A stretch of DNA of 40,240 nucleotides, taken from the IMG/VR virus record IMGVR_UViG_3300027851_000063, positions 1 through 40,240 of that record; one strand, given 5' to 3'. Source of the stretch: a virus. The position numbers were made by a program, and so were the translations under genes. Below the pieces are notes generated by a model. That model had not been told where the DNA came from. It worked only from the letters and a program-made list of their open reading frames with translations, and ran no database searches. Shown here piece by piece: positions 3,846 through 32,394 of this stretch (its first letter is position 1; each line of letters starts with the position of its first letter).

Positions 3846-3894
3846 CTATATTTGCACAAAGGCTTTCTTTACATGGTTTGCGAGTCTTTTACCC

Positions 3895-3922
3895 AAAGAG
3901 ATACTACGGTGTCTCTTTTTTT
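3895..3922 (+). terminator. Rho-independent terminator
   Basis: AAAGAGATAC (3895-3904) pairs with GTGTCTCTTT (3909-3918) over ten pairs with one T-G wobble and a TACG loop, and the T-run reaches 3922. It would end transcription from the gene at 3609. It also lies about 40 bases after a TATATTTG at 3847-3854. Confidence 0.82.
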
Positions 3923-4022
3923 GTGCCTATATGTAAACCATGTAAACGTAGTATCTCATTTATGGTTTACGCCGAAAGGCTATAGTTTACAGGGCTTAGC
4001 GCCAAAATAAACCATGTAAACC

Positions 4023-4057
4023 ATTATTATACTAAAAGATTAATATTATATAATAAT
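4023..4057. other. AT-rich hairpin in control module A
   Basis: ATTATTATA (4023-4031) pairs with TATAATAAT (4049-4057) around a 17-base loop containing CTAAAAGATTA. The counterpart in module B (19543-19570) keeps the pairing and the loop core while one stem pair changes from T-A to C-G. This suggests selection on the structure or on a dyad-symmetric binding site. AT-rich dyads of this kind are typical of origin unwinding regions. Confidence 0.6.
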
Positions 4058-4189
4058 AGGGGATATACAATACATAACCCGTAATAAGCACCCGTAAATG
4101 CGTATATACGCCTATAAGAGATTAACGTTTACATGGTTTACGTTTCTGCCATTTTCGGGCTTAAAAGATTGATTTGCAAACACTTGACA

Positions 4190-4217
4190 CGTAAACCATA
4201 AAAAAGCATGGTTTACG
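4190..4217. promoter_or_regulatory. Inverted-repeat operator candidate upstream of early promoter
   Basis: CGTAAACCAT (4190-4199) and ATGGTTTACG (4208-4217) form a perfect ten-base inverted repeat with an eight-base spacer. It ends 23 bases before the -33 element at 4241. Position and symmetry suggest a dimeric regulator site, with the HTH protein encoded at 4486 as the obvious candidate binder; this is inference. Confidence 0.55.
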
Positions 4218-4240
4218 CTGAAAATAAAGTAAAAAATATT

Positions 4241-4271
4241 TTTGGTTTTTATAAAAATAGGTTTATATTTG
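4241..4271 (+). promoter_or_regulatory. Bacteroidota-type promoter (TTTG-N19-TATATTTG), early region
   Basis: TTTG at 4241-4244 and TATATTTG at 4264-4271 are separated by 19 bases, a textbook match to the -33/-7 promoter of Bacteroidota. Transcription would start near 4276 and run into the broken small gene at 4295 and the regulator at 4486. The sequence around it (AATAGGTTTATATTTGCT) is nearly repeated in the promoter at 31084-31114. Confidence 0.85.
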
Positions 4272-4485: not shown

Positions 4486-4893
4486 ATGAACAACCTAAAA
4501 ATACAAGAGGCAATTACCGCCAGCGGCTTAGATAAGCCAGCTATTGCAACGCACTTGTTCCCGTCTAACCAATACCCTGTTATGGCCCTTGACAGGGTTA
4601 TGAAGGGCGACGGCGACCTAAACTCAACACAGATAACTAAACTATCTGAATTGTCAGGTATGCCGGTTGCCGCCATATTTGGCGAAACCTGGCGCAAGGC
4701 TGAAAGCAACGGCAAGCTAACCCGTTTCACGAATGGCGAGTACACCGCAGAATTTGACCGTACCGACTGGACTACCCGCGTGTACCACAATTCCGAGTTA
4801 ATCAGCGAAACGGTTATACACAGCGGCACTATAGCGCTTAGCGTTTACCTGCAAGAGATTGACAAAATAATCGCAAATTTAAAAAGTAAATAA
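4486..4893 (+). CDS. HTH-like DNA-binding regulator
   Basis: A 135-residue protein whose first 65 residues look like a Cro/C1-type helix-turn-helix: an IQEAITASGLDKPAIATHLF stretch, then a RVMKGDGDLNSTQITKLSEL segment matching the recognition-helix and following region of this fold. The remaining half is beta-rich (SNGKLTRFTNGEYTAEFD, then a TRVYHNSELI stretch) with an unknown role, perhaps dimerisation or effector sensing. It is the first intact gene after control module A and its promoter, the classic place for a regulator acting on the adjacent operators. The start at 4486 follows AACACAACT. No integrase accompanies it, so it need not be a lysogeny repressor; timing of early and late transcription is a reasonable alternative. 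Confidence 0.7.
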   Translation: MNNLKIQEAITASGLDKPAIATHLFPSNQYPVMALDRVMKGDGDLNSTQITKLSELSGMPVAAIFGETWRKAESNGKLTRFTNGEYTAEFDRTDWTTRVYHNSELISETVIHSGTIALSVYLQEIDKIIANLKSK

Positions 4894-5291: not shown

Positions 5292-5813
5292 ATGAAAGTA
5301 AAAGTAACAATTGACCTGGCAGACAAGGCACAGGCGGCAGCATTTCAAAACCTTGTAAGCGCACAGGCGGCAGCGGCACAAAAGCCGAGCAGGCTAAGTG
5401 TAGCCCACGCTGAAGCCATAGCCGCAATTAAATCATTGCCGGATGCCGAGGAACAAGAGCATAGCGAAGACGTTGCCACCCTTACGCAACCCGCTACAAA
5501 GAAAACCCGTGCGCCACGTAAAACGCAAGCAACCGAAGAGCAGCCCGTAGATACCGCCGCGGCTGAAAACGTTGAGGTAAACGAACCTGAAGAGGTTACC
5601 CCTGCCGCTGAAACAACTGAAGAAGAAGCCCAGCAAGAGCAGAATGATAGTGAATACACAATTGACGAATTGCGCCAACGTGTAGCCGATAATGTGAACG
5701 CTCACAGGGTTGCCATTAAAGCGAAGTTAAGCGAATTAGGGGCAGCAAGCGTTACTTTGCTCGCTAAGGAGAACTACCCGGCATTTATGGCCTTCTTAAA
5801 CACCCTTAAATAA
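5292..5813 (+). CDS. Acidic-linker protein with conserved C-terminal helix domain, unknown function
   Basis: A 173-residue protein in three parts: a helical N-terminus rich in Ala and Gln (residues 1-50); a disordered linker rich in Glu, Thr, Pro and Ala with a short basic stretch TKKTRAPRKT; and a compact C-terminal domain of about 50 residues running from TIDELRQRVADN to NYPAFMAFLNTLK. That C-terminal pattern occurs, to my knowledge, at the end of unrelated phage replication-region proteins in several host phyla, but its function is unknown to me. The gene starts in the TAAACCATG context and is coupled by TAATG to the DUF2800 nuclease gene, suggesting the two products act together. Confidence 0.7.
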   Translation: MKVKVTIDLADKAQAAAFQNLVSAQAAAAQKPSRLSVAHAEAIAAIKSLPDAEEQEHSEDVATLTQPATKKTRAPRKTQATEEQPVDTAAAENVEVNEPEEVTPAAETTEEEAQQEQNDSEYTIDELRQRVADNVNAHRVAIKAKLSELGAASVTLLAKENYPAFMAFLNTLK

Positions 5814-7018
5814 TGGACGCGGTAGACCACGGAGCGCGGAAGCACGCCCTGCTTTCGGCTTCGTCTGCCTCCCGCTGGCTGGCCTGCACACCCAGTGCCC
5901 GGCTTGAAGATAAGTTCATGCAATCCAATAAGGAGAAGCCAAACGTATTTGCTGACGAGGGAACTCTGGCGCATGAGATAGCCGACTTAATTTTAAAGCG
6001 GTATGCTAAACAAATAACACCAAAAGTGTATGAAGCAGAAGCAGCAAAACTAAAGAAAAATCCGCTGTTCTATAAGGAAATGATGGGCGAGGTAGAGCAA
6101 TATGTGGAGTTAGTTGTAGAAACCTACGGCGCAGCAAAACACGAAGACCCCGCAGCCCTATTATTTATCGAAGAACGTTTAGATTTTTCGCACCTGGTAG
6201 AGCAGGGCTTCGGTACGGGGGATGCCTGTATAATTTCTAACGGTGTGCTTGAGGTTATCGACCTGAAATTTGGTAAAGGTGTAAAAGTTGATGCCGACAA
6301 TAACCCGCAGCTTATGCTATACGGTGCCGGGGCTTTAGCCGCCTACGATTTCCTTTACGACATTCACACGGTACGCCTTACAATTGTGCAGCCACGGCTT
6401 GACCACGTATCGACGTGGGATATAAGCGTACAGGACTTAGAAGCGTGGGGGCAGAAAGTGGTAAGGCCGCAAGCCGCTAAGGCGTACGCCGGTAAAGGTA
6501 AGCAGGTTGCAGGCGACCACTGCAAATTTTGCAAAGTAAAAGCGATGTGCGCTACACTTGCCAGCGTTAACGTGAAACTTGCACAGCACGAATTTAAAGA
6601 CCCGCACTATTTAACCGACCAGCAGATAGTCGATGTATTCAAGCAAATACCTATGTTGGTAGACTGGGCTAACGCCGTGGGCGATCACCTTCTACAGCAA
6701 GCTCTACAAGGCAAAAAGGTACATGGCTATAAAGTTGTCGAGGGCAGGAGTAACAGGCGTTGGGTAGACGAAGAGCAAGTGGAAACCGTTTTAAAAGACC
6801 ACAGTTTCTTAGAAGAGTCTGAATATACCGTTAAAAAACTTGCAGGCATACCAGCGATTGAGAAGCTATTAGGCAAAAAAGAATTTACTGAAACGCTGGG
6901 CAAGCTGGTAGAGCAGCCAACAGGTAAGCCTACGCTTGTACCTGATACGGATAAGCGGCCAGCGTTCGACAGAACAGCCGATGCAGTAAAGTATCTGCTC
7001 GACAATTCAGAAGATTAA
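5813..7018 (+). CDS. DUF2800 family RecB/Cas4-like nuclease
   Basis: A 401-residue protein of the DUF2800 family (PD-(D/E)XK nuclease fold). The N-terminal phrase LLSASSASRWLACTPSARLE is the family hallmark. Nuclease motifs are visible: His54 in GTLAHE, Asp137 in GTGD, Asp150 and Lys152 in VIDLKFGKG, and Gln166 with Tyr170 in NNPQLMLY. Cys25 together with Cys237, Cys240 and Cys246 (CKFCKVKAMC) gives the one-plus-three arrangement of iron-sulfur Cas4/AddB-type enzymes. It is expected to process DNA ends during replication or recombination, and it precedes the DUF2815 ssDNA-binding protein as in related replication cassettes. It starts by TAATG overlap. Confidence 0.88.
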   Translation: MDAVDHGARKHALLSASSASRWLACTPSARLEDKFMQSNKEKPNVFADEGTLAHEIADLILKRYAKQITPKVYEAEAAKLKKNPLFYKEMMGEVEQYVELVVETYGAAKHEDPAALLFIEERLDFSHLVEQGFGTGDACIISNGVLEVIDLKFGKGVKVDADNNPQLMLYGAGALAAYDFLYDIHTVRLTIVQPRLDHVSTWDISVQDLEAWGQKVVRPQAAKAYAGKGKQVAGDHCKFCKVKAMCATLASVNVKLAQHEFKDPHYLTDQQIVDVFKQIPMLVDWANAVGDHLLQQALQGKKVHGYKVVEGRSNRRWVDEEQVETVLKDHSFLEESEYTVKKLAGIPAIEKLLGKKEFTETLGKLVEQPTGKPTLVPDTDKRPAFDRTADAVKYLLDNSED

Positions 7019-7110: not shown

Positions 7111-7659
7111 ATGTTAAACAGTGTAACACGTGTAAAAACAGGAAAAGTAAGATTTAGTTATCCTAACTTATTTAAGGCAAGAGCCATGCAGGAGGGGCAG
7201 ACCCCTAAGTTTACGGTATCTATTTTGATACCAAAAACAGACACAGTAACCCTGGACAAAGTAAAAGCCGCTATCGCAGCAGCTGAGGCAGCGGGGAAAG
7301 CCAAGTATGGCGCGGCCTTTAAGATTAAGCCAAAAGACCACCCGCTAAAGGATGGAGACGTTGAAAAAGGAGACGACCCGGTTTACAAAGGACAAATGTA
7401 CCTTAGTGCAAAGTCCATAACTAAACCCGCCGTACTTGACGAGAACGGCCAGTCTATTATATCGGCAGACGATTTCTATGCCGGTTGCTATGGACGCTCT
7501 ATTGTAGACTTCTACCCGTATAACGTAAATCTAAACGCTGGCGTAGCTACAGGCTTGCAGGCTGTTCAGTTTACAGAACACGGCGAAAGATTAGCCGGTG
7601 GGCTATCTGAGGAAGAGGCTGCCAACGTCTTTGCAGAAGACAGTGACGATATTTTGTAG
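7111..7659 (+). CDS. DUF2815 family single-stranded DNA-binding protein
   Basis: A 182-residue protein of the DUF2815 family, which includes the phage Enc34 ssDNA-binding protein and folds as an OB barrel. Family features: an N-terminal VRFSYPNLFKARA; KFTVSILIPKTD; the middle phrase PLKDGDVEKGDDPVYKGQMY; DFYAGCYGRSIVDFYPYN; and AGVATGLQAVQFTEHGERLAGG. The acidic C-terminal tail ending in DSDDIL is like the protein-interaction tails of SSBs and may recruit the polymerase or helicase. It has its own promoter upstream and a terminator directly after it, so it forms a separate transcription unit between the nuclease and the polymerase. Confidence 0.9.
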   Translation: MLNSVTRVKTGKVRFSYPNLFKARAMQEGQTPKFTVSILIPKTDTVTLDKVKAAIAAAEAAGKAKYGAAFKIKPKDHPLKDGDVEKGDDPVYKGQMYLSAKSITKPAVLDENGQSIISADDFYAGCYGRSIVDFYPYNVNLNAGVATGLQAVQFTEHGERLAGGLSEEEAANVFAEDSDDIL

Positions 7660-7773: not shown

Positions 7774-7787
7774 CAAATTTTCAAACC

Positions 7788-9746
7788 ATGAAACTTCACA
7801 TCGACATTGAAACGTTTGCTTCTGAAATATTGACGGGGCAAAAAAGCGTTGGCGCCTATAAGTACTTCGAGTCACCCGACTTTGAGATATTAATGGTAGC
7901 CTATGCGTTTGACGACAACCCCGTAGAATTAGTAGACCTTGCAGCGGGTGAGGTATTGCCTGAGTTTTTTATCTACTCCCTAACCGACCCGCTGGTAGAG
8001 AAGTATGCCCATAACGCTAACTTCGAGCGTAACGCATTCAAGGCTTACGGCTATGAATCGGATATATCCGAATGGCGTTGTACGGCAATTAAATCGCTGT
8101 ATTGCGGTTTGCCGCAATCCCTGGATATGGTAAGTAAAGCCCTAAAGCTGGAAGAGAAAGGAAAATTATCAACAGGTAAAGCCCTGATTCGATATTTTTC
8201 TGTACCTTGTAAGCCCTCAAAAGCTAACGGTATGCGCAGCAGGAACTTTTATTTTCACGATCCCGTAAAATGGGAAGAGTTTAAACGCTACTGTATTGCC
8301 GACGTTGAAGCCGAAAGGGAAATTTGCTCACGGCTTTCGCACTTTGAAATACCTGAGATTGAGCAAAAGGCGTATACCCTTGACCAGAAGATAAACGACC
8401 GCGGCGTGCGTATAGATACGCAACTGGCAAGCATAGCGGTAGCAACGGATAAACGATTTAGCGAAGAGCTAACGGTGCGCATAAAAGAATTGACCGGCCT
8501 AAAGAACCCAAAAAGCCCGGCGCAGTTAAAGAAGTGGTTAAGCGATGCAACAGGCACAAACATATCAAGCCTTACTAAAGCAGCAGTAAACGACCTACTT
8601 ACTGAAACAACTGACGGGGCTGTTTTAGAGGTTCTACGGGCGCGGCAAATGCTTTCCAAAACGTCGATAAAGAAGTATTTGAAAATGATGGACTGCGTAT
8701 GTGCAGACGGCAGGGCGCGAGGGCTATTCCAGTTTTACGGAGCAAACCGCACCGGCCGCTGGGCAGGCAGGTTAATACAGTTGCAGAACCTGGCACGTAA
8801 CCACATGGCTAATTTAGACGAGGTACGAGCCATGCTGTCTTTAAATGAGCATAAAAAGTTTTTGTATTTAGTAGACAGCGTGCCGCAGGCACTATCAGAG
8901 CTTGTCCGTACGGCCTTAATACCTTCAGAGGGTAAGACCTTTGCCGTGTCGGATTTCAGCGCCATAGAAGCCCGGGTGTTGTCGTGGCTGGCTAATGAAA
9001 AGTGGCGGCTTGACGTGTTCAGCACGCATGGTAAAATATATGAAGCGTCTGCCGCAATGATGTTCAATATACCCCTTGAAAGTATTGGCAAAGGTTCAGA
9101 GTACAGGCAGCGGGGTAAAGTGGCAGAGCTTGCACTTGGCTACCAGGGCGGCAAGGGTGCCATGGCAACGATGGACACAGAAAAGAAAATACCGGTACAT
9201 GAGTACCAAATGATTGTGGATAAGTGGCGCAAGGCAAACCCTGAGATAGTGAAGCTGTGGAAAAAGGTAAATGATTATGCAATCCATGCTTTAGAAAATC
9301 CCGGCAAACGTTTTAAGCTCGATAAATTAACATTCGAGTATTCGCAAAAGGCGTTACAAATCGGCCTACCTTCGGGGCGTAAACTATTTTACTGGGATGC
9401 TAAACTGGTACCCGGTAAATTCGGCGGCAGTTCTATAGCGTATATGGGTATGGAGCAAACTAAAAAGGTATGGGGGCGTATTGACACCTACGGCGGCAAG
9501 CTGGTAGAGAATATAGTACAGGCCATATCCCGTGATTTACTTTCTGAGTGTATGCTGCGGGTAGATGCCGGCGGTTTTCCTATCTGTATGCACATACATG
9601 ATGAGATAGTTCCGGAAGTACCTGCCTGCGATGCAGAGGACAGTCTTAAAATTATTGAACAACTAATGTGTGAAGTGCCAAGCTGGGCAGCAGGGTTGCC
9701 GCTTAACGCAGACGGATATATAACAAATTTTTATAAAAAGGAATAA
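7788..9746 (+). CDS. Family A DNA polymerase with 3'-5' exonuclease domain
   Basis: A 652-residue replicative polymerase. The N-terminal exonuclease begins LHIDIETFAS, with Asp6 and Glu8 as metal ligands, and continues with HNANFERNAF near residue 75. Polymerase motif A is SDFSAIEARVLSWL with Asp389. Motif B follows near residues 440-455, from RQRGKVAEL to the LGYQGG phrase. Motif C is HIHDEIVPE with Asp605 and Glu606. The template-side phrase ANRTGRWAGRLIQLQNLAR is also present. This matches the phage Pol I group that travels with DUF2800, DUF2815 and VapE genes. The start context is CAAACCATG. It is coupled to the methyltransferase gene by TAATG. Confidence 0.96.
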   Translation: MKLHIDIETFASEILTGQKSVGAYKYFESPDFEILMVAYAFDDNPVELVDLAAGEVLPEFFIYSLTDPLVEKYAHNANFERNAFKAYGYESDISEWRCTAIKSLYCGLPQSLDMVSKALKLEEKGKLSTGKALIRYFSVPCKPSKANGMRSRNFYFHDPVKWEEFKRYCIADVEAEREICSRLSHFEIPEIEQKAYTLDQKINDRGVRIDTQLASIAVATDKRFSEELTVRIKELTGLKNPKSPAQLKKWLSDATGTNISSLTKAAVNDLLTETTDGAVLEVLRARQMLSKTSIKKYLKMMDCVCADGRARGLFQFYGANRTGRWAGRLIQLQNLARNHMANLDEVRAMLSLNEHKKFLYLVDSVPQALSELVRTALIPSEGKTFAVSDFSAIEARVLSWLANEKWRLDVFSTHGKIYEASAAMMFNIPLESIGKGSEYRQRGKVAELALGYQGGKGAMATMDTEKKIPVHEYQMIVDKWRKANPEIVKLWKKVNDYAIHALENPGKRFKLDKLTFEYSQKALQIGLPSGRKLFYWDAKLVPGKFGGSSIAYMGMEQTKKVWGRIDTYGGKLVENIVQAISRDLLSECMLRVDAGGFPICMHIHDEIVPEVPACDAEDSLKIIEQLMCEVPSWAAGLPLNADGYITNFYKKE

Positions 9747-10471: not shown

Positions 10472-12868
10472 ATGACAGATAAAATAAACATAGCAACCGG
10501 CTTGCGGTACAACTCGCCAAGCTGGAAAAATAAAAAGGTTACGTGGCCTGAACTTGTGCAAAGGTTAAGCGAAACTGTAAAGACTAACGAAACACTTAAA
10601 GAGTTTTTAGGCGCAACCCGGGAAGAGCAACTGCGTATTAAAGACGTAGGCGGTTTTGTGGGGGGCTACCTAAGAGGCGGTAAGCGTAAGCACGACACCG
10701 TTGTACACCGCCAACTGCTTACGCTCGATATAGATTTCGCGCATAAAGATTTTTGGGATGACTTTACATTAATGATGGACTGCGCCGCCGTGCTGCATGC
10801 CACGCATAAGCATTGCGAGGCTTCGCCCCGTTACCGCCTAATCATACCGCTTAACCGCGAATGTACGCCCGACGAATACGTGGCTGCAGGCCGTAAGGTT
10901 GCCGGGGATTTAGGTATTGACCTTTTCGACAACACTACGTTCGAGCCTAACCGCCTAATGTTTTGGCCTTCTACTCCTAAGGATATGGAGTACTACTTTA
11001 AAACGCAATCGGGCCCGGCTGTAGACGTTGATGAGGTACTTGCCACTTATGCCGACTGGAAGGACAGCAGCCTGTGGCCTACCTCGCAAACCAAGTTCGA
11101 CCAGGTACGGGCGCATGCCGATAAGCAGGAAGACCCCGAAACTAAAAAAGGTATTGTAGGCGCATTCTGTAGGGCGTACACCATGACTGAGGCAATTACT
11201 AAATTCCTTACCGAAGAGTACGAACCTACCGACGTAGAGAATAGGTACACTTATACCAAAAGCACGACGGCGGCAGGGCTTATTGTATACGATGATAAGT
11301 TCGCCTTCTCGCACCACGGCACCGACCCGTGCAGTGGCAAGCTGTCAAACGCTTTCGACCTGGTACGCGTGCACCGCTTCGGGCATTTAGACGAAGGCGC
11401 CACCAGTGGGAAGGCTACTAAAAGCTACAAGGCTATGGACGACTTCGCCCGTGAGGACAAAGTGGTGCGTAAGCTAATAGCCTCCGATGCTATAAGCGAA
11501 GCACGTTACGACTTTAACGAGGACATGCCCGAAGACATAAGTGAAGCAGACCCCGAAGCGGAGGACATAACCTGGATGCAGGATTTAGAAATCGACGGTC
11601 GTAAAAATTACCTGTCAAGTGCCACAAACCTCAACTTAATATTTGCCAACGACCACCGGCTTAAAAAGCTGTTCAGATTAAACGACTTTGATAGTAAACG
11701 ATATGTGTTTAATAACCTGCCGTGGCGTAAAGTGCCGAAGCCTGAGCCTGTACGCAATGTAGACTACTCCGGCATCCGGAACTACATCGAAAGTATCTAC
11801 GGCATTACCGGAGCGCAAAAGATTGAGGACAGTATAAGCCTTGAGTTTGAAAAAAACCGCTTTCACCCGGTAGTAGACTACCTAAGGGGTTTAACATGGG
11901 ACGGCGTGCAGCGTATCGATACGCTACTGATAAACCTGTTCGGGGCAGAAGATACCCGGTACACCCGTGAGGCTATGCGTAAATGGCTTGTAGGCGGTGT
12001 TGCACGTGTGATGCAGCCAGGCATTAAGTTCGAGCTTGTACTGGTATTGGTAGGCGCGCAGATACAAGGGGCGGGTAAAAGTTCGTTCCTGAAAGCGTTA
12101 GGCCGTCAATGGTTTAGTGATAGCTTCAGCACGCTACAGGGCAAAGAGTCTTTCGAGCAGTTGCAGGGCGCATGGATTATTGAAATGGCAGAACTTGCAG
12201 GGCTTAAGAACGCCGAAGTAGAAGGCATACGCCACTTCATATCTAAACAAGAGGACACGTTCAGGCCTGCATACGGCAGGACAACTGAAACCTATCCGCG
12301 CCAAAGTATATTCGGCGGCACCACAAACCGCCGTGACTTCCTGAAAGACCCAGTAGGCAACCGCCGCTTCATGCCTATAGACACCAAACCCGTGAAGCTG
12401 GTAGATAACCCCGAGTTGTGGCAGTTCATAAATGACGAGGCTACTATTAACCAGGTATGGGCAGAAGCCGTAACGCTGTACAAAGCCAAAGAGCCGCTAT
12501 ACCTTAGCCGCGAAGCGGAAGAGATTGCAGCCGTTGAGCAAATGAAGCACAGCGAAACAGACGAACGCAAGGGCATAATAGAGCAATACCTTAGCACTCC
12601 TGTATCTACTGACTGGGATACTAAAGACGAGTTAGAGCGAAGGGCTTATTTAGCTGACCCGCTTGTAAAAGGTACGGTAGTAAGGGAGTACGTTTGCACC
12701 GCTGAGATATGGTGTGAATGCTTAGGCAAAAAACGTGAAGACCTTGACCCGTACAAAAGTAGGGAACTGAATACGATAGTCAGAAATATAGAAGGCTGGG
12801 AGTTTATCAATTCAACACGTAACTTTAGCCTTTACGGCAAACAGAAATATTATCAACTTAAAAAATAA
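10472..12868 (+). CDS. Primase-helicase: PrimPol-like N-terminus and VapE-type ATPase
   Basis: A 798-residue replication protein. The N-terminal third resembles an archaeo-eukaryotic primase: LTLDIDFA with Asp86 and Asp88, a THKH near residue 112 and RYRLIIPLNR. The middle is a linker region. The C-terminal half is the virulence-associated-E P-loop ATPase, with VLVLVGAQIQGAGKSS around residues 524-538 (Lys536 in Walker A), a Walker B WIIEMAEL and the downstream phrases YGRTTETYPRQSIFGGTTNR and GNRRFMPID. It would prime and unwind DNA for the family A polymerase encoded upstream. The start is in the context TTTTAAACCATG, three bases after the methylase stop. Confidence 0.9.
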   Translation: MTDKINIATGLRYNSPSWKNKKVTWPELVQRLSETVKTNETLKEFLGATREEQLRIKDVGGFVGGYLRGGKRKHDTVVHRQLLTLDIDFAHKDFWDDFTLMMDCAAVLHATHKHCEASPRYRLIIPLNRECTPDEYVAAGRKVAGDLGIDLFDNTTFEPNRLMFWPSTPKDMEYYFKTQSGPAVDVDEVLATYADWKDSSLWPTSQTKFDQVRAHADKQEDPETKKGIVGAFCRAYTMTEAITKFLTEEYEPTDVENRYTYTKSTTAAGLIVYDDKFAFSHHGTDPCSGKLSNAFDLVRVHRFGHLDEGATSGKATKSYKAMDDFAREDKVVRKLIASDAISEARYDFNEDMPEDISEADPEAEDITWMQDLEIDGRKNYLSSATNLNLIFANDHRLKKLFRLNDFDSKRYVFNNLPWRKVPKPEPVRNVDYSGIRNYIESIYGITGAQKIEDSISLEFEKNRFHPVVDYLRGLTWDGVQRIDTLLINLFGAEDTRYTREAMRKWLVGGVARVMQPGIKFELVLVLVGAQIQGAGKSSFLKALGRQWFSDSFSTLQGKESFEQLQGAWIIEMAELAGLKNAEVEGIRHFISKQEDTFRPAYGRTTETYPRQSIFGGTTNRRDFLKDPVGNRRFMPIDTKPVKLVDNPELWQFINDEATINQVWAEAVTLYKAKEPLYLSREAEEIAAVEQMKHSETDERKGIIEQYLSTPVSTDWDTKDELERRAYLADPLVKGTVVREYVCTAEIWCECLGKKREDLDPYKSRELNTIVRNIEGWEFINSTRNFSLYGKQKYYQLKK

Positions 12869-13275: not shown

Positions 13276-13411
13276 CTTTGAAACCCCCGAAGAGTATGAG
13301 CAGTACCTTAAGCGAGAAAGTCGTTTGGAATTCATTGAAACGTACCGTAGAGGACGAGCTTCACGGATGGCTTATAAAGCTGCCTACAATCCATATAACA
13401 GGATTGCCTGA
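13253..13411 (+). CDS. Overlapping small frame (52 aa), tentative
   Basis: An ATG-initiated frame of 52 codons overlaps the end of the preceding gene by 23 bases and the first 116 bases of the VRR-NUC gene in a different frame. The product reads like a real protein: it begins MTLQSKINFETPEEYEQYLK and continues with an Arg-, Glu- and Tyr-rich helical stretch ending in YKAAYNPYNR. It bridges a gap that would otherwise separate two genes. Against it: it lacks the AAACC or TAATG start signals typical here and contains CGA and AGA codons that look less common in the surrounding genes. I list it as possible dual-frame coding. Confidence 0.38.
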   Translation: MTLQSKINFETPEEYEQYLKRESRLEFIETYRRGRASRMAYKAAYNPYNRIA

Positions 13412-13580
13412 CGGCATGGCGCTGTTACCCTGCGGGGTAGTTGTCTTCGTGGAAACGAAGCGCAAAGGCAAAACGCCGACAAAGATACAAACTTTAGTAC
13501 ATAACAAATTGCGCCGGCTGGGCTTCCGTGTTGAAGTGGCAGACACCGCCGAGCAGATTAAAAATATATTTAAACCATGA
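13296..13580 (+). CDS. VRR-NUC domain nuclease
   Basis: A 94-residue stand-alone VRR-NUC (PD-(D/E)XK) nuclease. Counting from the ATG at 13296, the motif residues are Glu7, Asp39 in TGLPDG, Glu53 and Lys55 in VETKRKGKTPT, and Gln65 in TKIQTLVHNKLRRLGF. Stand-alone enzymes of this type in phages act on branched DNA and usually lie, as here, between the VapE primase-helicase and the SNF2 helicase. A TTG at 13278 would add six residues, but the ATG gives the usual spacing to the first acidic residue. The stop overlaps the next start as ATGA. Confidence 0.88.
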   Translation: MSSTLSEKVVWNSLKRTVEDELHGWLIKLPTIHITGLPDGMALLPCGVVVFVETKRKGKTPTKIQTLVHNKLRRLGFRVEVADTAEQIKNIFKP

Positions 13581-13843
13581 GTCTATTTAAACATATAAAA
13601 GGAAAGGGTAAACCATTAAAGGTGGTAGCCATAAAACTTACTGACGAAGCTGATACTGAAGAATTAACACCTGGAAAAGAATACACCGTGACTGGGTACT
13701 TCGATAATTACTACTGTGAAGTATACGGCTGGGGTTGTGAAATTGACGGTAATACCGGAAAAAGCGAAAAGCTTATAAACGAGAAAAATGATTTTGAAGT
13801 GGTAGGCGGCAGCTGGGTAGTAACCGAAAGAGCACCGGAGTAA
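13577..13843 (+). CDS. Small beta-rich protein of unknown function (88 aa)
   Basis: An 88-residue protein with a beta-strand pattern: LKVVAIKLTD, then TPGKEYTVTGYFDNYYCEVY, then WGCEIDGN, and an FEVVGGSWVV ending. The TPGKEYTVTG phrase resembles small SH3-like phage proteins with a GKxYxV strand, but I cannot assign a family or function. It is coupled at both ends, by ATGA with the VRR-NUC gene and by TAATG with the helicase gene, so it is made with the DNA-processing enzymes and may be an accessory of one of them. It starts in the TTTAAACCATG context. Confidence 0.72.
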   Translation: MSLFKHIKGKGKPLKVVAIKLTDEADTEELTPGKEYTVTGYFDNYYCEVYGWGCEIDGNTGKSEKLINEKNDFEVVGGSWVVTERAPE

Positions 13844-15228
13844 TGAACGAGTCAAACCTGCACGGCTACCAGCATACTGCTGTAAGCCACATAATGGAAA
13901 ATACGCACGGGGCGCTGCTGCTCGAAATGGGCTTAGGCAAAACCGTGTCGACCCTTACCGCTATCAACAAACTAATTTATGAAGAGCTGGAAATAAACGC
14001 CGTGCTTATCATAGCCCCTAAGCGGGTAGCTGAAAGTGTGTGGAGTGCTGAGATAGGCAAGTGGGAACACCTGAAGCACCTTCGTATATCAAAGATATTA
14101 GGCACCGAAAAGCAGCGCAAGGCTGCCCTGCGGCAACCGGCAGACGTGTACACCATAGGCCGGGATAACGTGGCGTGGCTGTGCTCGCAGTTTGGAGGCA
14201 CCCGCACCCCGTTTGATATGCTTGTCATTGACGAACTATCTAGTTTCAAAAACCCGCAGTCGGTACGCTTCAAAGCATTAAAGGCGGTACAGCCCTCGTT
14301 TAGCCGTGTTGTCGGCCTTACCGGTACACCTGCGCCCAATGGCCTTATCGACCTGTGGAGCCAAATATATCTACTCGACCGGGGGGCAAGACTGGGCAAG
14401 TTTATCACTACCTACCGCGAAACGTACTTTAGGCCGGATAAACGTAACGGCTCGATAACCTACAGCTATAAACTTGAAGAGTCGGGGGAGCAGCAGATAT
14501 ATGATAAGATAGGCGACATTTGTATGAGCATGAAAGCTAAAGACTATTTGGATTTACCCGAGCGTATCAACAATATTGTGCGTATTGATATGCCGCCCGA
14601 CTTGCAAAAGCAATACAACGACTTTGAAAAGGAACAGGTTATGAACCTGGTAAGTGCTGAGGGCGATGATAAAGAAATATCTGCCCTGAATGCGGCTGCC
14701 TTATCGAACAAGCTGCTACAGTTTGCCAATGGCGCTATGTACGATGAGAACAAGGTTTACCACGAGGTACACGATTTAAAGCTGCTGGCTTTAGAAGAAC
14801 TTATCGAAGCGGCTAACGGCCACCCGGTGCTTATTGCGTGGACGTACAGGCATGACCGCGACAGGATGCTGGAGAAGCTAAAGAAGTACAAGCCGCAGGA
14901 ACTTAAAACGGATCAGGATATAAACGACTGGAACGCCGGCAAGATACAAGTTATGATGATGCACCCGGCTTCAGGAGGCCATGGCCTTAACTTGCAGGCA
15001 GGCGGTAATATAATCGTATGGTTCGGGCAGACGTGGAGTTTAGAACTTGAGCAGCAATTCAATGCAAGGCTTGACCGCCAGGGGCAGAAAAATGCCGTTG
15101 TAGTGAACAAGCTGGCAGTCGTTGGCACTATGGATGAAGACGTGCTGAAAGCGCAGGAGACGAAAGGTAATAACCAAAACAGACTTATGGATGCCGTCAA
15201 GGCTAAAATTAATAAATATCTAAAATAA
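13843..15228 (+). CDS. SNF2-like DEAD/DEAH-box helicase
   Basis: A 461-residue superfamily 2 helicase of the SNF2-like phage group. Motif I is MGLGKT (residues 29-34, Lys33). Motif Ia is VLIIAPKRVAESVW. Motif II is DELSSF (130-135), the phage variant of DEAH. Motif III is LTGTPAPNG. In the second RecA domain are VLIAWTYRHDRDR, then MMHPASGGHGLNLQAGGN (motif V) and QQFNARLDRQGQ (motif VI, near 403-414). These enzymes remodel protein-DNA complexes or unwind DNA in phage replication and occur beside VRR-NUC genes. Translational coupling by TAATG links it to the small gene before it. Confidence 0.93.
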   Translation: MNESNLHGYQHTAVSHIMENTHGALLLEMGLGKTVSTLTAINKLIYEELEINAVLIIAPKRVAESVWSAEIGKWEHLKHLRISKILGTEKQRKAALRQPADVYTIGRDNVAWLCSQFGGTRTPFDMLVIDELSSFKNPQSVRFKALKAVQPSFSRVVGLTGTPAPNGLIDLWSQIYLLDRGARLGKFITTYRETYFRPDKRNGSITYSYKLEESGEQQIYDKIGDICMSMKAKDYLDLPERINNIVRIDMPPDLQKQYNDFEKEQVMNLVSAEGDDKEISALNAAALSNKLLQFANGAMYDENKVYHEVHDLKLLALEELIEAANGHPVLIAWTYRHDRDRMLEKLKKYKPQELKTDQDINDWNAGKIQVMMMHPASGGHGLNLQAGGNIIVWFGQTWSLELEQQFNARLDRQGQKNAVVVNKLAVVGTMDEDVLKAQETKGNNQNRLMDAVKAKINKYLK

Positions 15229-15934: not shown

Positions 15935-16303
15935 ATGTTCAAAATAGCCAGGCACAAAAGTAAAGAACTTTGCCCCGCGTACCGGTGCCGTAATGCGCGG
16001 GGTAATAAGAAGAGGTTTTGCCCGAGACACCACCATATGCACCAGGCAGAAACGAACCCGCTGGGCTACACGTACAGCCGGCTGAAGCAGAACGCTAAAA
16101 GGCGGCGTAAGACGTTTACTTTAACCCTTGAGCAGTTCGGACAGTTCTGCACCGAAACGAATTATTTAGAACTAAAAGGCAAACAGGGCAGCAACCTGAG
16201 CATTGACCGAATTAATAACGGTAAAGGTTACGAAGTAGGTAATTTACAAGTACTTACGTTATCTGCCAACTCCCGTAAAGGCTGCGGTTATTGCCCATTT
16301 TAA
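15935..16303 (+). CDS. HNH-like endonuclease or zinc-binding DNA protein
   Basis: A 122-residue protein. The N-terminal part has Cys13, Cys18, Cys29 and a His cluster at 32-34, a likely zinc site. The C-terminal part reads LSIDRINNGKGYEVGNLQVL followed by TLSANSRKG, matching the HNH-family layout in which a D-R-x-x-x-x-x-G-Y phrase is followed by N-x-Q-x-L and a final Asn before Lys-Gly. The basic stretch KQNAKRRRKT may contact DNA. The first His of a classical HNH is replaced by an Ile-Asp pair, so activity is uncertain. It lies two bases after the Dam-like methylase gene. A free-standing nicking or homing endonuclease is the likeliest role. Confidence 0.68.
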   Translation: MFKIARHKSKELCPAYRCRNARGNKKRFCPRHHHMHQAETNPLGYTYSRLKQNAKRRRKTFTLTLEQFGQFCTETNYLELKGKQGSNLSIDRINNGKGYEVGNLQVLTLSANSRKGCGYCPF

Positions 16304-18781: not shown

Positions 18782-19338
18782 TGAAAGCAAACTATAAAGG
18801 CAGCGAAGTTGATGTTATCCGCTTCAACTTCGCATCGAAAATGGCAGATATAGATTTAAAAGGCACTGATACTACGGTGCCTTTTTTATCACTTACGGAT
18901 ATAAAAGCAGAACATGGCGAACCGTTTTATCCAGTACCACCCAAGCCTAAAACGACCCGTAAAAAGGCGGTAAAATACGTTTGGGCGCAGGATAAAATGA
19001 CGGCGGTCTACTACGAAATTGTATCGATTAACCTACGTAAAAGAACGGTAAGATTGCAGATACCGTGGATATCTAAGACTAATAAATTTCATACTCACGG
19101 CCCTTGCCAGGTGGTAAGACCCCTCAACGAGGTGCTTTTTTTAAGCAGAAATACCAAGCCGAGTGTTAAAATTGAAAAAAAATACGGTGTTTCAAGTACG
19201 GAAAAACTTACAAGAATAGTATTAGCCGGGTACGCCGTCCACTTTTCAGGGCTGCAAATCATAGCTAAAAACAGCCTGCCGGAAAAAAAAGGAACTTTAA
19301 CAGTGGTGTACCAAAGAATTTTCGGTAAACGTACGTAA
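18781..19338 (+). CDS. Basic protein of unknown function, last gene of replication module
   Basis: A 185-residue, Lys- and Arg-rich protein with no recognised family. It has a beta-rich N-terminus, a PVPPKPKTTRKKAVKYVWAQ stretch near residues 51-70 and a basic C-terminus ending FGKRT. The net positive charge suggests nucleic-acid binding. Its final codons (GGT AAA CGT ACG TAA) already form the first unit of control module B, so the repeat array begins inside the gene. It starts by TAATG overlap with the nucleotidyltransferase gene, so the two may act together. Confidence 0.68.
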   Translation: MKANYKGSEVDVIRFNFASKMADIDLKGTDTTVPFLSLTDIKAEHGEPFYPVPPKPKTTRKKAVKYVWAQDKMTAVYYEIVSINLRKRTVRLQIPWISKTNKFHTHGPCQVVRPLNEVLFLSRNTKPSVKIEKKYGVSSTEKLTRIVLAGYAVHFSGLQIIAKNSLPEKKGTLTVVYQRIFGKRT

Positions 19339-19733
19339 ACGTATATCGTTTACGCTGCAACCCCTGCAAACACTGGGCATTCCATGCCTGTAAACCATGT
19401 AAACGATAAAAAGCCCAAACTTTTGAAAACAGTGTTTTGCCAAAAAACGTAAACCATGTAAACCATGTAAACGTACTATGGTTTACCGGGAAACCCCTGT
19501 AAACACTGGGCTTAACGCCAAAATAAACCATGTAAACCATACTATTACTAAAAGATTATATATAGTAATAATAGGGAATATATACACATAAATGTACCTG
19601 TAAAACGCGTAAAACGCCTATACGCCTTATAAGAGTTTTATGGTTTATGGTTTACAATTGGTCAAAAAACGGCCTTAACGTTTTGATTTGCAGTGTGTTA
19701 AACGAGAAACGTACTCTTTTTTTATGGTTTACG
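19334..19733. repeat. Control module B: second GTAAACCAT/ATGGTTTAC repeat array
   Basis: About 400 bases without a gene, carrying a perfect inverted repeat CGTAAACG/CGTTTACG at 19334-19354, GTAAACCATGTAAACG at 19390-19405, three tandem units at 19448-19473, ATGGTTTAC at 19478-19486, two units at 19524-19540, ATGGTTTATGGTTTAC at 19640-19655 and ATGGTTTACG at 19724-19733. An 18-base repeat CCCCTGyAAACACTGGGC occurs at 19361-19378 and 19494-19511. The part from 19508 to about 19704 is homologous to module A. The last repeat sits 33 bases upstream of the terminase promoter. Origin iterons or late-gene operators are the main options. Confidence 0.87.
19543..19570. other. AT-rich hairpin in control module B
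   Basis: TATTACTA (19543-19550) pairs with TAGTAATA (19563-19570) around a 12-base loop starting AAAGATTA. The counterpart at 4023-4057 has a different stem sequence with pairing kept, including a T-A to C-G exchange, and the same CTAAAAGATTA core. Confidence 0.6.
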
Positions 19734-19765
19734 CTTTGTTTCGTTGTGAAGCAATGAAAATATTT

Positions 19766-19795
19766 TTTGTAGTTTGGAATTTATTCGTATGTTTG
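19766..19795 (+). promoter_or_regulatory. Bacteroidota-type promoter of the terminase operon
   Basis: TTTG at 19766-19769 and TATGTTTG at 19788-19795 are separated by 18 bases, matching TTTG-N18-TAnnTTTG. The terminase small-subunit ATG at 19813 is only 17 bases from the -7 element, so the 5' leader is about a dozen bases at most. The upstream repeat at 19724-19733 is a candidate activator or repressor site. Confidence 0.82.
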
Positions 19796-19812: not shown

Positions 19813-20280
19813 ATGGCAGTTAAAAAACCAGGAACATTGAAACCCATAGGCAGGCCGAAAGCGATAGCCTCCCCGGATAACATGCTTGAGCTTTTTTACG
19901 AATACCGAACCGAAGTTAAGTCGAAACCATTTTTGGTAAAGGACTGGGTGGGCAAAGATGCCGAGCCGGTTTATCGGGAAAAAGAAAAACCCCTGACACT
20001 TGAGGGTTTTGAGAATTACCTTTTCGAGAAAAAGATTATAAGCGATATAAGCGATTACTTTGAGAACAAAGATAACAGATACGCGGATTTTGTCCCCGTC
20101 TGCCGCGCTGTGAAACGCTTTATCCGCCAAGACCAAATCGAGGGCGGCATGGCCATGATTTACAACCCGAGCGTAACGCAGCGCCTCAACAACCTGAAAG
20201 AGCAAACCGATGTAACTACCGGCGGCGAAAAAATAAACGTGATAGCGTTAGGCAATGGGTCTATTTCCGAAACAGAATAA
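19813..20280 (+). CDS. Terminase small subunit (P22 gp3-like)
   Basis: A 155-residue protein resembling the gp3-type DNA-packaging small subunit: N-terminal basic GRPKAIASP, LELFYEYRTEVKSKPF, a KPLTLEGFENYLFEK motif, and the IEGGMAMIYNPSVTQRLNNL end segment characteristic of this family. It would recognise the packaging site and hand DNA to the large subunit, whose gene overlaps it by 26 bases. The pac site in this class often lies in or near the small-subunit gene, so the repeat-rich module B just upstream could also serve packaging. The start is in the context TTTAAACCATG. Confidence 0.88.
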   Translation: MAVKKPGTLKPIGRPKAIASPDNMLELFYEYRTEVKSKPFLVKDWVGKDAEPVYREKEKPLTLEGFENYLFEKKIISDISDYFENKDNRYADFVPVCRAVKRFIRQDQIEGGMAMIYNPSVTQRLNNLKEQTDVTTGGEKINVIALGNGSISETE

Positions 20281-21625
20281 CGCCGTCTATTACCTGAAAG
20301 ACCGCGTTACCCAGGAGGTGGTTTACGGCGGCGCAGCAGGTGGGGGCAAGTCAGCGTTGGGCTGCTTATGGCTTATAGAGCAGTGCCAGGCGTACCCCGG
20401 AACCCGTTGGCTAATGGGACGTAGCAAGCTGAAAACTTTGCGTGAGACAACGCTTAACACTTTTTTCGAGCAGTGCGCTAAATACGGTATCTCTAACCAG
20501 TTTAAATACAATGGCGAGACGCACACCGTTAACTGGAACAATGGCAGCCAAATAATCTTAAAAGATTTATACTTTTACCCTACCGACCCGAATTTTGATA
20601 GCTTAGGCTCCCTTGAAATCACAGGGGCGTTTATAGACGAATGCAATCAAATCACTTTTAAGGCATGGCAGACGGTAAAAAGCCGTATAAGGTACAAGCT
20701 CGAGCAATACGGCCTTACGCCTAAAATGTTAGGCACGTGTAACCCGGCAAAGAACTGGGTATATTCGGAGTTCTATAAACCGAGCAGGGAGAAGCTACTG
20801 GGGAAGCCCAACGAGGAACACCCGAATTGGCAGTGCAGCGCGTTTGTGCAGGCGCTGCCAACTGACAACCCCCACTTACCGGATAGTTATTTGCAAATAC
20901 TCCGTAATTTGGAACGTAACAGCCGTGAGCGCCTTTACTTCGGCAACTGGGAATACGACGACGACCCGGCAACACTTATCGATCATGACAGCATAAGCGA
21001 TTACTTTGTGCAGTCGATAGCTGATTGCCATGTAAGGCCCGAAGGCCAAAAGTACATGACTATCGACGTGGCACGTAAAGGCAAAGATAAAACTGTGATA
21101 CGCGTATGGCATGGTTGGGTAGTTATACACCGCTTTGCCCTTGCCGTGTCAACTATTCCGGAAACGATCGCAGCAGCGCGCAAGCTGGCAACCGCTAACG
21201 GTGTACCGCTGGGTAACATTATCGCAGACGAAGACGGCGTAGGTGGTGGCGTGGTAGATGGCCTGCGATGCAAAGGCTTTGTGAATAACAGCAGCCCGCT
21301 TGAAATGCTGGAAGGCACCGTTTACGTTAAGCCTAACTATGACAATCTTAAAAGCCAATGCAGTATTAAAATGGCTGAGCTAATCGCGGATAAGCTGGCC
21401 GCTGAAGTCTGCGAAGACAGCGAGGTACAGCGCATCACGTCCGAAGAGATGGAGCAGGTAAAGCTGAAAGATATTGACAAAGACGGTAAGCAGGGCGTTA
21501 TTCCGAAGGATAAAGTTAAAGAGCATATAGGCCGCAGCCCTGACGAGTGGGATAGCATTATGATGCGTTACTGGTTTGCTTTGCGTAAAAACTACACTGC
21601 TAAAGTGCGGGTAGGAAACAGGTAA
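20255..21625 (+). CDS. Terminase large subunit
   Basis: A 456-residue packaging ATPase-nuclease. Walker A is GGAAGGGKS (residues 25-33, Lys32). Walker B is GAFIDEC with Asp128 and catalytic Glu129. The coupling motif region GTCNPAKNWVYSEFYKP follows at about residues 160-176. The C-terminal RNase-H-fold nuclease has MTIDVARKGKDKT with Asp271, IIADEDGVGGG with Asp325, and a last Asp in SPDEWDS (430-434). Together with the gp3-like small subunit this suggests headful packaging. The gene lies about 11 kb upstream of the capsid genes, with tail genes in between. The start ATG at 20255 lies within the end of the small-subunit gene. Confidence 0.97.
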   Translation: MGLFPKQNNAVYYLKDRVTQEVVYGGAAGGGKSALGCLWLIEQCQAYPGTRWLMGRSKLKTLRETTLNTFFEQCAKYGISNQFKYNGETHTVNWNNGSQIILKDLYFYPTDPNFDSLGSLEITGAFIDECNQITFKAWQTVKSRIRYKLEQYGLTPKMLGTCNPAKNWVYSEFYKPSREKLLGKPNEEHPNWQCSAFVQALPTDNPHLPDSYLQILRNLERNSRERLYFGNWEYDDDPATLIDHDSISDYFVQSIADCHVRPEGQKYMTIDVARKGKDKTVIRVWHGWVVIHRFALAVSTIPETIAAARKLATANGVPLGNIIADEDGVGGGVVDGLRCKGFVNNSSPLEMLEGTVYVKPNYDNLKSQCSIKMAELIADKLAAEVCEDSEVQRITSEEMEQVKLKDIDKDGKQGVIPKDKVKEHIGRSPDEWDSIMMRYWFALRKNYTAKVRVGNR

Positions 21626-21659
21626 TTAAAAATAATTTTTACTTTTTTGCAAAAATAGT

Positions 21660-21689
21660 TTTGTAGTTTGAAATATTGGTGTATATTTG
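21660..21689 (+). promoter_or_regulatory. Bacteroidota-type promoter of moron cassette 1
   Basis: TTTG at 21660-21663 and TATATTTG at 21682-21689 are separated by 18 bases. The whole block from 21627 to the ATG at 21724 is nearly repeated at 25098-25191, including the unusual TATATTTGTACTCAGATAAC. It drives the small genes inserted after the terminase gene. Confidence 0.87.
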
Positions 21690-21723
21690 TACTCAGATAA
21701 CAATAATTAAAATTAAAAAAACC

Positions 21724-21936
21724 ATGGCTCCAGTAAAAATTGAAACTCAAAAAGTAATTTGCTTCCACGAAACATTCTATATGATAGGCACAAACAAAGA
21801 AGCTGTATCAAGAGGTGTAGAAGCTGAGGGCGTTCACAAAAGAACTTACGAGCAAGTTAAATCAACAAAAAAAGATATGGTTGCAGAGAATGAAGAAATA
21901 ATGTGCTTCCCAGTAATTGAGCCTTATGCAGTATAA
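21724..21936 (+). CDS. Small moron-like protein of unknown function (70 aa)
   Basis: A 70-residue protein starting MAPVKIETQKVICFHETFYM and rich in Lys and Glu, with a GTNKEAVSRGVEAEGVHKRT stretch in the middle. It has its own promoter, an AAAAAACCATG start and an AT-rich composition unlike the terminase gene before it. An in-frame TTG at 21676 lies inside the promoter and is rejected. No family recognised. Position between terminase and neck genes with a private promoter is typical of a moron. The next small gene overlaps its end by 11 bases. Confidence 0.7.
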   Translation: MAPVKIETQKVICFHETFYMIGTNKEAVSRGVEAEGVHKRTYEQVKSTKKDMVAENEEIMCFPVIEPYAV

Positions 21937-23953: not shown

Positions 23954-25098
23954 TGGCAATAACTTTTATAGACGCACTAAGCCCCAACGTAATACGATGG
24001 GTGTACAATAACCAGGTATTCCGCTTTTACGAAGACAGCGGCACGCCTGCTAAATACTGCGACGTTACGAATGCAGGTTTTACCGTGCGGCTATACCCTG
24101 CGCCCGACGGTTCGTTTTACATAAACCTTAAGCCGTACTTAGCGGCTTACGCCAATACGGAAAACTTTGAAGACAACGTAGTGCCCGACCTCGATATTGA
24201 AGAGGCCGACAGCTTTGTCTATAATGGCGCGCCAGGGTTCTACAATTCGGAAACTTATTCGTTTACAGTTACTTTAGAAGACGATACGGCCGAGGGCTTC
24301 CCGGCTACCTTTACGTTCCTTACCGGTGCGCAGCAGATAGGCCAGTACAAGGCGCTGGATAAATCAGAGATGCATGTGCTTACACCGCTATCGGGCTTAG
24401 CCACGAATACCAATTATGTAAAGTACTGGGAGGGATACCCGTTTGACCTACCGGTGTATACACCCGAAGACAATATTTTTATCTACAACAATACGAACCT
24501 GCTTTCGGCGGCGTTCGCTACAAACAATTATTACTTATGCCGCCTGTTCTTTAGCGACGGACGCACAGACGAAACGATTGAAGAGTTCCTGCCGCTGATC
24601 ATGGGGCAGAACCAGCTTACTATAAATCACTTTGAACTGGGGGAGGTTACCGATAAATTTCTGACCGTTGAGAAAGTGCCGTACCGTTGCGGGGTTTATT
24701 TTAAATTCCTTAACCAGTCGGCAGGCTTCAGCTATTGGCTGTTTGAAGACACGGCAGCTATTGATCGCAGCACTAAATCACTGGGCGACCTGTACAATGA
24801 TTTCGATAATATCCAAACTACAAGAGCCAGGAGCTTAAACATTGGGCAGGCCGTACAGGACACGATACGCGTAGTAACCGAGATACTTACCGAGCAGGAG
24901 GCCGCTATCGTTAGGCAAATACTTGACAGCCCTAAGATTTATATGTTTACCGGCGCACCGTTTAGCCGCAATGGCAAATACGACTGGCAGGAGGTTACGC
25001 TCAGGACCACATCGGCTCGGGTGAAAGAGTACAAAAATAATAAATCGGTTTTCGCCCTTGACTTTGATTTGCCGCAACGTGATACCGTTACCCTATAA
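23953..25098 (+). CDS. Tail structural protein, possibly distal-tail-like
   Basis: A 381-residue, beta-rich protein (MAITFIDALSPNVIRWVYNN at the start) with many aromatic and Asp/Thr residues and no membrane segment. Its place between the gp10-like gene and the large tail protein at 25574 indicates a tail component. The C-terminal region (QIYMF-type strand, then SVFALDFDLPQRDTVTL) is well formed and the gene is followed directly by the second moron promoter. I cannot separate tail tube, distal tail or baseplate roles by eye. It is coupled by TAATG to the gp10-like gene. Confidence 0.62.
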   Translation: MAITFIDALSPNVIRWVYNNQVFRFYEDSGTPAKYCDVTNAGFTVRLYPAPDGSFYINLKPYLAAYANTENFEDNVVPDLDIEEADSFVYNGAPGFYNSETYSFTVTLEDDTAEGFPATFTFLTGAQQIGQYKALDKSEMHVLTPLSGLATNTNYVKYWEGYPFDLPVYTPEDNIFIYNNTNLLSAAFATNNYYLCRLFFSDGRTDETIEEFLPLIMGQNQLTINHFELGEVTDKFLTVEKVPYRCGVYFKFLNQSAGFSYWLFEDTAAIDRSTKSLGDLYNDFDNIQTTRARSLNIGQAVQDTIRVVTEILTEQEAAIVRQILDSPKIYMFTGAPFSRNGKYDWQEVTLRTTSARVKEYKNNKSVFALDFDLPQRDTVTL

Positions 25099-25126
25099 AA
25101 TAATTTTTACTTTTTTGCAAAAATAG

Positions 25127-25157
25127 TTTGGTAGTTTAAAACATCGGCGTATATTTG
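25127..25157 (+). promoter_or_regulatory. Bacteroidota-type promoter of moron cassette 2
   Basis: TTTG at 25127-25130 and TATATTTG at 25150-25157 are separated by 19 bases. The block from 25098 to the ATG at 25192 is a near copy of 21627-21723, sharing AATTTTTACTTTTTTGCAAA and TATATTTGTACTCAGATAAC. It separates two tail genes and drives two small unknown genes. Confidence 0.87.
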
Positions 25158-25191
25158 TACTCAGATAACAACAATTAAAATATCAAAAACC

Positions 25192-32027: not shown

Positions 32028-32030
32028 TTT
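31975..32030 (+). repeat. Duplicated gene end, first (functional) copy
   Basis: These 56 bases recur at 32325-32380 with four differences. They encode the last residues INRRQVYRIKAWMESIK of the small gene at 31791 plus the stop and following AATTT. All four differences fall at third codon positions and are silent. Confidence 0.85.
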
Positions 32031-32046
32031 AAAAATATAATAAACC

Positions 32047-32380: not shown

Positions 32381-32394
32381 TAATAAATAAAACC

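Follow-up and report, generated by a model that had tools for sequence, protein, structure and literature searches.

Replication origins of the Staphylococcus aureus pathogenicity islands (SaPIs) contain an AT-rich part flanked by sets of repeats, and in the satellite phage P4 two cis sites, ori1 and crr, are bound by one primase-helicase, the alpha protein. The C-terminal domain of SaPI Rep helicases recognises an iteron origin that immediately follows the helicase gene, SaPI5 Rep is a primase-helicase with its putative origin directly downstream, and the C-terminal domain of Cch2 binds its putative origin (PMC7581432). Phage SPP1 possesses two origins of similar organisation with repeats and an AT-rich unwinding region, 12-13 kb apart, and when bound to oriR, G38P is believed to block the replication fork and to trigger sigma replication (PMC6316719, PMC3485210). 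The window analysed here is the whole 40,240-bp stretch of virus record IMGVR_UViG_3300027851_000063, a tailed phage, apparently of a Bacteroidota host, with a 127-bp terminal repeat and its long open reading frames (ORFs) on one strand. Two of its modules, A and B, are diverged copies of one element and, judged from sequence and predicted fold, are quite probably two copies of a replication origin of the VapE/PriRep1 type, served by a self-loading initiator helicase, since repeats surround an AT-rich core in both, VapE is PriRep1-like, arrays are found at the 3' end of vapE elsewhere, and repeats and VapE end change together.

As in SaPIs and in SCCmec, the source of Cch2, the window encodes a PriRep1-like primase-helicase whose C-terminus is predicted to form a winged helix, and as in SaPIs the short repeats form two sets flanking an AT-rich stretch. 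While the SaPI origin lies directly downstream of the helicase gene, no array was found 3' of vapE in the window, which instead carries two copies, 15.5 kb apart, that bracket the replication block of a phage genome and not of a satellite. With SPP1 oriL/oriR the locus shares, as sequence features, the two copies with repeats and an AT-rich region, and a further likeness lies in the exonuclease, annealing and single-stranded DNA (ssDNA)-binding proteins which the phage also encodes. However, the helicase candidate of the window is VapE/PriRep1-like in place of the gp38-gp39-gp40 of SPP1, the likeness to SPP1 being one of organisation, and oriL of SPP1 is located inside gene 38, whereas B is located upstream of the terminase genes. 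The parallel with P4 consists of two cis sites and one primase-helicase. The first-pass annotation of this DNA, which had read A and B as control modules, knew of no described system of this form, a statement that was too strong considering the two similarly organised origins of SPP1. No iteron origin described for Bacteroidota phages was found in the searched open-access literature, which takes in few subscription papers.

Two copies of one element around the replication block

Module A is placed between a small gene and the gene of the 4486 protein, while module B follows the last early gene and precedes the terminase genes. That B is a diverged duplicate of A, as initially proposed, is confirmed by blastn of the window against itself, which aligns 3931-4141 with 19456-19655 (74.3%, E 1.8e-24); with the A intergenic region alone as query the alignment covers 218 columns at 74% (E 2.8e-26), and the best-matching stretch reaches 89% over 54 nt (3989-4042 and 19505-19558). 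The local alignment score is 156 versus 20.5 ± 2.4 for shuffled copies. Exact 9-mers of the types GTAAACCAT/ATGGTTTAC occur 14 times in the 40,240 bp, six times in A, seven times in B and once elsewhere, while in 50 Markov simulations the count of any one 9-mer per 450-bp window never exceeded four.

Each module is composed of repeats of approximately 9 bp in both orientations around an AT-rich core, with the number and spacing of the outer repeats differing between the copies. The block GGGCTTArCGCCAAAATAAACCATGTAAACCAT, whose first part had been noticed before along with the repeat pairs and ATAAGAG, is common to both, as are ATAAGAG, GATTTGCA and the terminal ATGGTTTACGC, which in each copy is followed, as described earlier, by a host-type promoter match (TTTG-N-TAnnTTTG); the gap from the last repeat to the promoter TTTG is 24 bp in A and 33 bp in B, and four further matches in the window have no module. 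The cores rank among the top 0.6-0.8% of AT-rich 60-bp windows. The hairpin said to be shared is marginal: both cores, each with an imperfect inverted repeat, are foldable, yet 18/200 shuffles of A and 9/200 of B fold equally well or better (z -1.46 and -1.74). The gene order from A to B, namely 4486, DUF2800 nuclease, ssDNA-binding protein, PolA, VapE, a small nuclease gene and SNF2 helicase, agrees with the earlier statement that the copies bracket the replication block, and related records keep this order with 4486 at the head as far as each contig reaches.

Used as a DNA query against a phage collection, A retrieved only 25- and 29-base pieces (E 0.5), and a scan with a degenerate pattern recovered the known contigs and one further site judged by eye to be chance. 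Starting from a four-member 4486 alignment, which led to 16 viral loci including P2559Y, the 700 bp upstream of 4486 were compared with the own record in 18 records (15 from IMG/VR, P2559Y, BF503P1 and the window), promoter repeats among the matches being told apart by eye. A non-promoter second copy was present in 8/18, the window, G001, G002, P2559Y, G010, G006, G009 and BF503P1, and the pair of G011 was found with its own module, about 0.9 kb upstream of 4486, as query. In all of these other than BF503P1 the second copy immediately precedes a TerS-like gene and TerL. The second copy of BF503P1 is some 2 kb away from a large terminase downstream of it, with an adjacent downstream gene not identified as TerS, and the block pair of this phage, possibly the same element as A and B, is in the two expected places and 79.6% alike but without [TG]AAAC pairs; the blocks are L016 313-501 and 28036-28223, with CATTTTRCYAC-like repeats nearby by eye. 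Two more pairs, both in phages with an annotated terS, are those of TCUEAP1, where the profile detects a 4486 homolog (E 1.5e-23), and of BU1-1, whose copies match at 82.5% over 229 columns (E 6e-63) and for which tblastn and the family profile found no 4486 homolog. Pairs thus amount to 11 phages of about eight lineages, one of them (BF503P1) with other repeats; window/G001/G002 and P2559Y/G010 are close kin, and the TerL types downstream of B differ among the phages. Only one copy, at most 2.3 kb upstream of 4486, was seen in G003, G005, G007 and G012-G016, records of 8.7-34.8 kb. The break of the G002 contig falls within B, its two ends overlapping by 63 bp (L017 1-63 and the end of L018), and the P2559Y record likewise breaks or starts inside its own B (L015 43153/1).

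Within one genome A and B align with scores of 52-258 in nine genomes (for P2559Y left parts only, as the record breaks inside B), and 22 A-A or B-B comparisons between distant phages score 16-88. Although these ranges overlap (TCUEAP1 52, G011 86), the A/B score of each genome is higher than all its own distant comparisons (9/9), and only close kin score higher across genomes (window/G001 531 and 536, P2559Y/G010 447). The same repeat is used in both copies, GTAAACCAT in the window, mainly TAAACAAT in P2559Y, TGTCTCAAA in TCUEAP1 and TGCACAGA in BU1-1. A finder for period-9 inverted pairs had matches in 16/28 records, all inside arrays, versus one match in 2.99 Mb of simulated sequence; it is strict and fails to detect several modules, B of the window and the two P2559Y copies among them.

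VapE as candidate initiator

The only PDB relative of VapE at E <=0.01 is 7pds, PriRep1 with double-stranded DNA (phmmer E 7.7e-71; profile E 5.6e-103, profile positions 365-790), a protein which we take to be the SaPI5 initiator. A model of VapE residues 640-798, built on a 27-row alignment, has a mean pLDDT (predicted confidence) of 86 with block means of 92-98 from model residue 61 on, and its PDB matches at E <=0.001 are six 7pds chains only (E 6e-7 to 1e-5). The C-terminus is predicted to form helices followed by two long strands, a predicted winged helix and, by this fold, a putative double-stranded DNA-binding domain.

Arrays at the 3' end of vapE were sought in an interval starting 250 bp ahead of the gene end and extending 1.3 kb past it (an L147 array 1.2 kb after vapE was counted) in the best 80 loci of a longer list, 50 of which had enough flank. 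An array was present in 19/31 well-covered loci without 4486 versus 0/19 with it (Fisher p 9e-6), where six arrays belonging to VapE proteins of 97% identity or more (L132-L134, L137-L139) were not collapsed, so that this p value and the correlations given below overstate independence. A 4486 homolog is in reach in 23/80 loci, of which 0/23 have a 3' array and 16/23 an AAACA-type cluster (>=4), located 5.2-6.9 kb upstream of vapE in 14; in four loci with 4486 such a cluster lies downstream, at 4.5-9.8 or 3.6 kb. GTAAAC-type clusters are found 3-10 kb downstream in eight loci, with 4486 in reach or not, and the following gene is readable in seven of them, the L121 array being situated at the locus end. 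The large terminase is the second ORF after the array in L089, L091, L103, L123 and L124, only the latter two of which have a recognised small terminase as first ORF, and a small terminase follows the array in L107 and L094.

In a cluster scan of 13 chosen records (8-mers in 300 bp; simulated maximum 3, seldom 4), five of which are paired phages, the BF503P1 and BU1-1 pairs coming from other searches, six had an array directly 3' of vapE: phi12 (five copies, the weakest), LWP01, EFP1, TonyLawson77, Bacuni_F1 and phiCDKH02 (partial). In PM682P4 and the partial BV741P4 the scan found neither a pair nor an array directly 3' of vapE, and tblastn and the family profile found no 4486 homolog in any of these eight. 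On visual inspection the arrays of Bacuni_F1, LWP01 and EFP1 run from repeats through an AT-rich stretch to one or more inverted repeats, and the 3'-array repeats are mostly TGnnnACA, including TGTAAACA and GTAAACAA of the P2559Y type. Dense 8-mer arrays upstream of vapE were also observed, in L158 (~3950-4350; 14 x CCCGTACA and 7 x CCCGGACA, ~6 kb upstream, no 4486 in reach), L099 (~1-400; 10 x CTCTTTGA and 8 x AAAGAGAT) and L120 (~4000; 15 x ACTTGTCA).

Among 40 phages (5/45 arrays were dropped as SNF2 or PolA was unreadable), the correlation with repeat similarity is 0.352 for VapE 691-798, 0.339 for VapE 1-400 and 0.281 for VapE 470-690, and for other proteins 0.242 (SNF2) and 0.083 (PolA). 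VapE 691-798 retains partial correlations of 0.27, 0.36 and 0.23 given SNF2, PolA and the VapE ATPase respectively (p 0.002-0.004), and these three lose their correlation in partial tests. Six VapE proteins (L132/L133, L134, L137-L139) are 97-99.9% identical, yet are accompanied by three repeat types, TGTAGACA (n=2), TGGTAACA (n=1) and TGTCAACA (n=3). The types are told apart by 13 alignment columns, every one of them within window residues 775-798, where both predicted strands (139-159 of the model), the predicted wing, are located, versus 0/14 variable columns before residue 691; L132 and L134 have no difference before residue 691 and nine after. Between the L132, L134 and L137 types 1-3 of the 8 repeat positions differ, whereas the codons that follow the array hardly vary. 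These three loci (~12100-12700) are natural specificity variants in which the last 24 vapE codons and the repeat type switch together, either because the two co-evolved in place or because a cassette of wing plus array was exchanged. Such near-identical VapE proteins would offer ready-made pairs from which the DNA choice of a PriRep1-type wing could be read.

Proposed mechanism and alternatives

In the proposed mechanism the C-terminal winged-helix domain of VapE would bind the repeats of A and B, and hexamers assembling on each side would open the AT-rich core and act as helicase, to be followed by the phage polymerase and the ssDNA-binding protein. With less confidence, A, beside the early promoter, would fire first in theta replication, while B, beside the terminase genes, might be a late origin or a fork barrier aiding the switch to concatemers, a role that has been proposed for oriR of SPP1. 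Recombination between the copies, one shared binding protein, or both may keep A and B alike, and conjecturally the HNH protein, the DUF2800 nuclease and the ssDNA-binding protein could have resolvase, exonuclease and annealing roles. The complete scheme, with A as theta start and B as late origin or programmed fork barrier leading to packaging-ready concatemers, independent of SPP1, with a PriRep1-type initiator and a specificity kept by recombination and co-evolution with the VapE wing, is put forward tentatively and may well not hold in all its parts. If true, the origin reading would provide initiator and site for a large group of VapE/PolA phages, with an origin readable from sequence and a paired layout around the replication block in which the theta-to-concatemer switch could be tested.

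Several observations weigh against paired VapE origins. Support comes throughout from sequence and predicted fold. The array does not adjoin vapE in the 4486 clade, unlike in SaPIs; at the threshold applied, a 3' array is missing from 12/31 loci that lack 4486, and the AAACA cluster scan found no AAACA-type array in 7/23 loci with 4486. The correlation of VapE 1-400 nearly equals that of the C-terminus and persists as a partial correlation of 0.167 (p 0.024). Linkage without function may have carried wing and repeats along together, because the sequence between the repeats is only 77-82% identical among the three array types next to near-identical genes. Outside the paired layout stand G008 (71 kb; clusters at 1119 and 69255, 4486 at 58870) and PM682P4, with an array before the early genes and no B by blastn, and further exceptions are the phages with a single array 3' of vapE. 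GC skew in eight genomes, with the cumulative maximum at most 5.4 kb from B in 8/8 and the minimum at most 2.3 kb from A in 5/8, is only suggestive of origins, as gene content can produce it. Finally, both copies precede promoters and A adjoins a helix-turn-helix gene, which fits operators.

The latter point leads to the suggestion of the first-pass annotation that one phage regulator acts on both early and late promoters, and to the reading of A and B as mere operators through which the 4486 protein, or another phage regulator, would couple these promoters. The 4486 protein has no match in Pfam, PHROG or NCBIfam and nothing below E 0.17 among PDB sequences, scanning its alignment against genome contigs confirmed no relative, and Foldseek places HppE and MPnS enzymes on the top ranks (E >=0.017) with XRE domains lower, mostly at a root-mean-square deviation of 2.1-3.4; it is predicted to combine an XRE-like helix-turn-helix with a beta domain, and for this reason an additional regulatory role is possible. 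The promoter matches just downstream of both copies, with four other promoter matches that have no module, the predicted fold of the protein encoded after A and the lack of 3' arrays in the VapE loci with 4486 are in line with operators. Yet like arrays occur 3' of vapE in 19/31 well-covered loci without a 4486 homolog in reach and BU1-1 is paired with no such homolog found, so that sites of this kind occur also where the regulator gene was not found, the repeat type switches with the VapE C-terminus, and an operator needs no AT-rich core between inverted repeat sets. Operators alone are unlikely. The alternative offered alongside it, paired replication elements, is supported by anatomy, repeat class and position in other VapE phages, all of which fit an initiator-bound origin, and the control-module reading probably gives way to it.

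A VapE origin that in addition controls its promoter, through bound initiator or 4486, overlaps with this paired-origin explanation and is a live sub-case, though the less favoured form of it. Autoregulated iteron origins are known, and the 24 and 33 bp to the promoter TTTG would suit them; that the outer repeats differ in number and spacing between the copies speaks against it. Far less probable is B as a packaging initiation site (pac/cos) with A as its relic. B does stand upstream of terminase genes in every case placed, and it contains the break of both the G002 contig and the P2559Y record, but the terminase types after B differ, G002 shares 95% identity with the window across the 278 bp that run from inside B up to the start of terS, against a TerS match of 41% that covers only part of its length, A would make a second site, and the 63-bp overlap at the G002 break is as in circular assembly. 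Chance or mere low-complexity similarity, to which the AT-rich core could contribute, is practically negligible with 13 of 14 9-mers in two intervals, the alignment E value of 1.8e-24 and the pairs in relatives.

Features of the window and minor observations

Table 1. Coordinates of modules A and B, their parts and neighbouring genes in the window
Feature	Position	Strand	Remark
Module A, putative origin copy 1: GTAAACCAT-type repeats around AT-rich core	3873..4218	.	upstream of early/replication genes
A left inner repeat pair ATAAACCATGTAAACCAT, period 9, two forward repeats	4007..4024	+	
A AT-rich core, imperfect inverted repeat, putative unwinding region	4025..4062	.	
A TATAAGAG motif	4113..4120	.	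also in B; variants in some relatives' modules (by eye)
A right inner inverted repeat pair GTTTACATGGTTTAC	4127..4141	-	
Host-type promoter match (TTTG-N-TAnnTTTG) after A	4241..4271	+	
4486 protein, XRE-like helix-turn-helix + beta domain	4486..4893	+	predicted fold
DUF2800 / PD-(D/E)XK nuclease-like protein	5813..7018	+	replication block
ssDNA-binding protein, Enc34 family	7111..7659	+	
Family A DNA polymerase (PolA)	7788..9746	+	
VapE primase-helicase, PriRep1-like, proposed initiator	10472..12868	+	
VRR-NUC-type nuclease (name from relatives' annotation), small gene, SNF2-type helicase	13278..15228	+	end of conserved replication core
Module B, second copy	19390..19732	.	upstream of terminase genes
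B outer tandem repeats GTAAACCAT GTAAACCAT GTAAACGTA	19449..19475	+	
B left inner repeat pair ATAAACCATGTAAACCAT, two forward repeats	19523..19540	+	
B AT-rich core, imperfect inverted repeat	19541..19578	.	
B TATAAGAG motif	19628..19635	.	
B right inner inverted repeats ATGGTTTATGGTTTAC, two copies, period 7	19640..19655	-	
Host-type promoter match after B	19766..19795	+	
Terminase small subunit (19813-20280) and large subunit (20255-21625)	19813..21625	+	

An Rfam scan of the window found one tRNA and nothing at A or B; this tRNA-Ala (GGC) gene (7705-7774) lies inside the replication block, in the gap between the ssDNA-binding protein and PolA. The HNH protein (15935-16303) has a PHROG match to endonuclease VII and is a possible Holliday junction resolvase. 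The main module of G008 (L043 1087-1470, with repeats also at 414-500) is followed by two small ORFs that appear ribbon-helix-helix-like by eye. Other repeats of the window are a promoter-containing repeat of 98 bp in the late region (21629-21726 and 25097-25194, 91% identity) and a pair of approximately 79 bp amid small genes (31975-32053 and 32325-32401, 87%).
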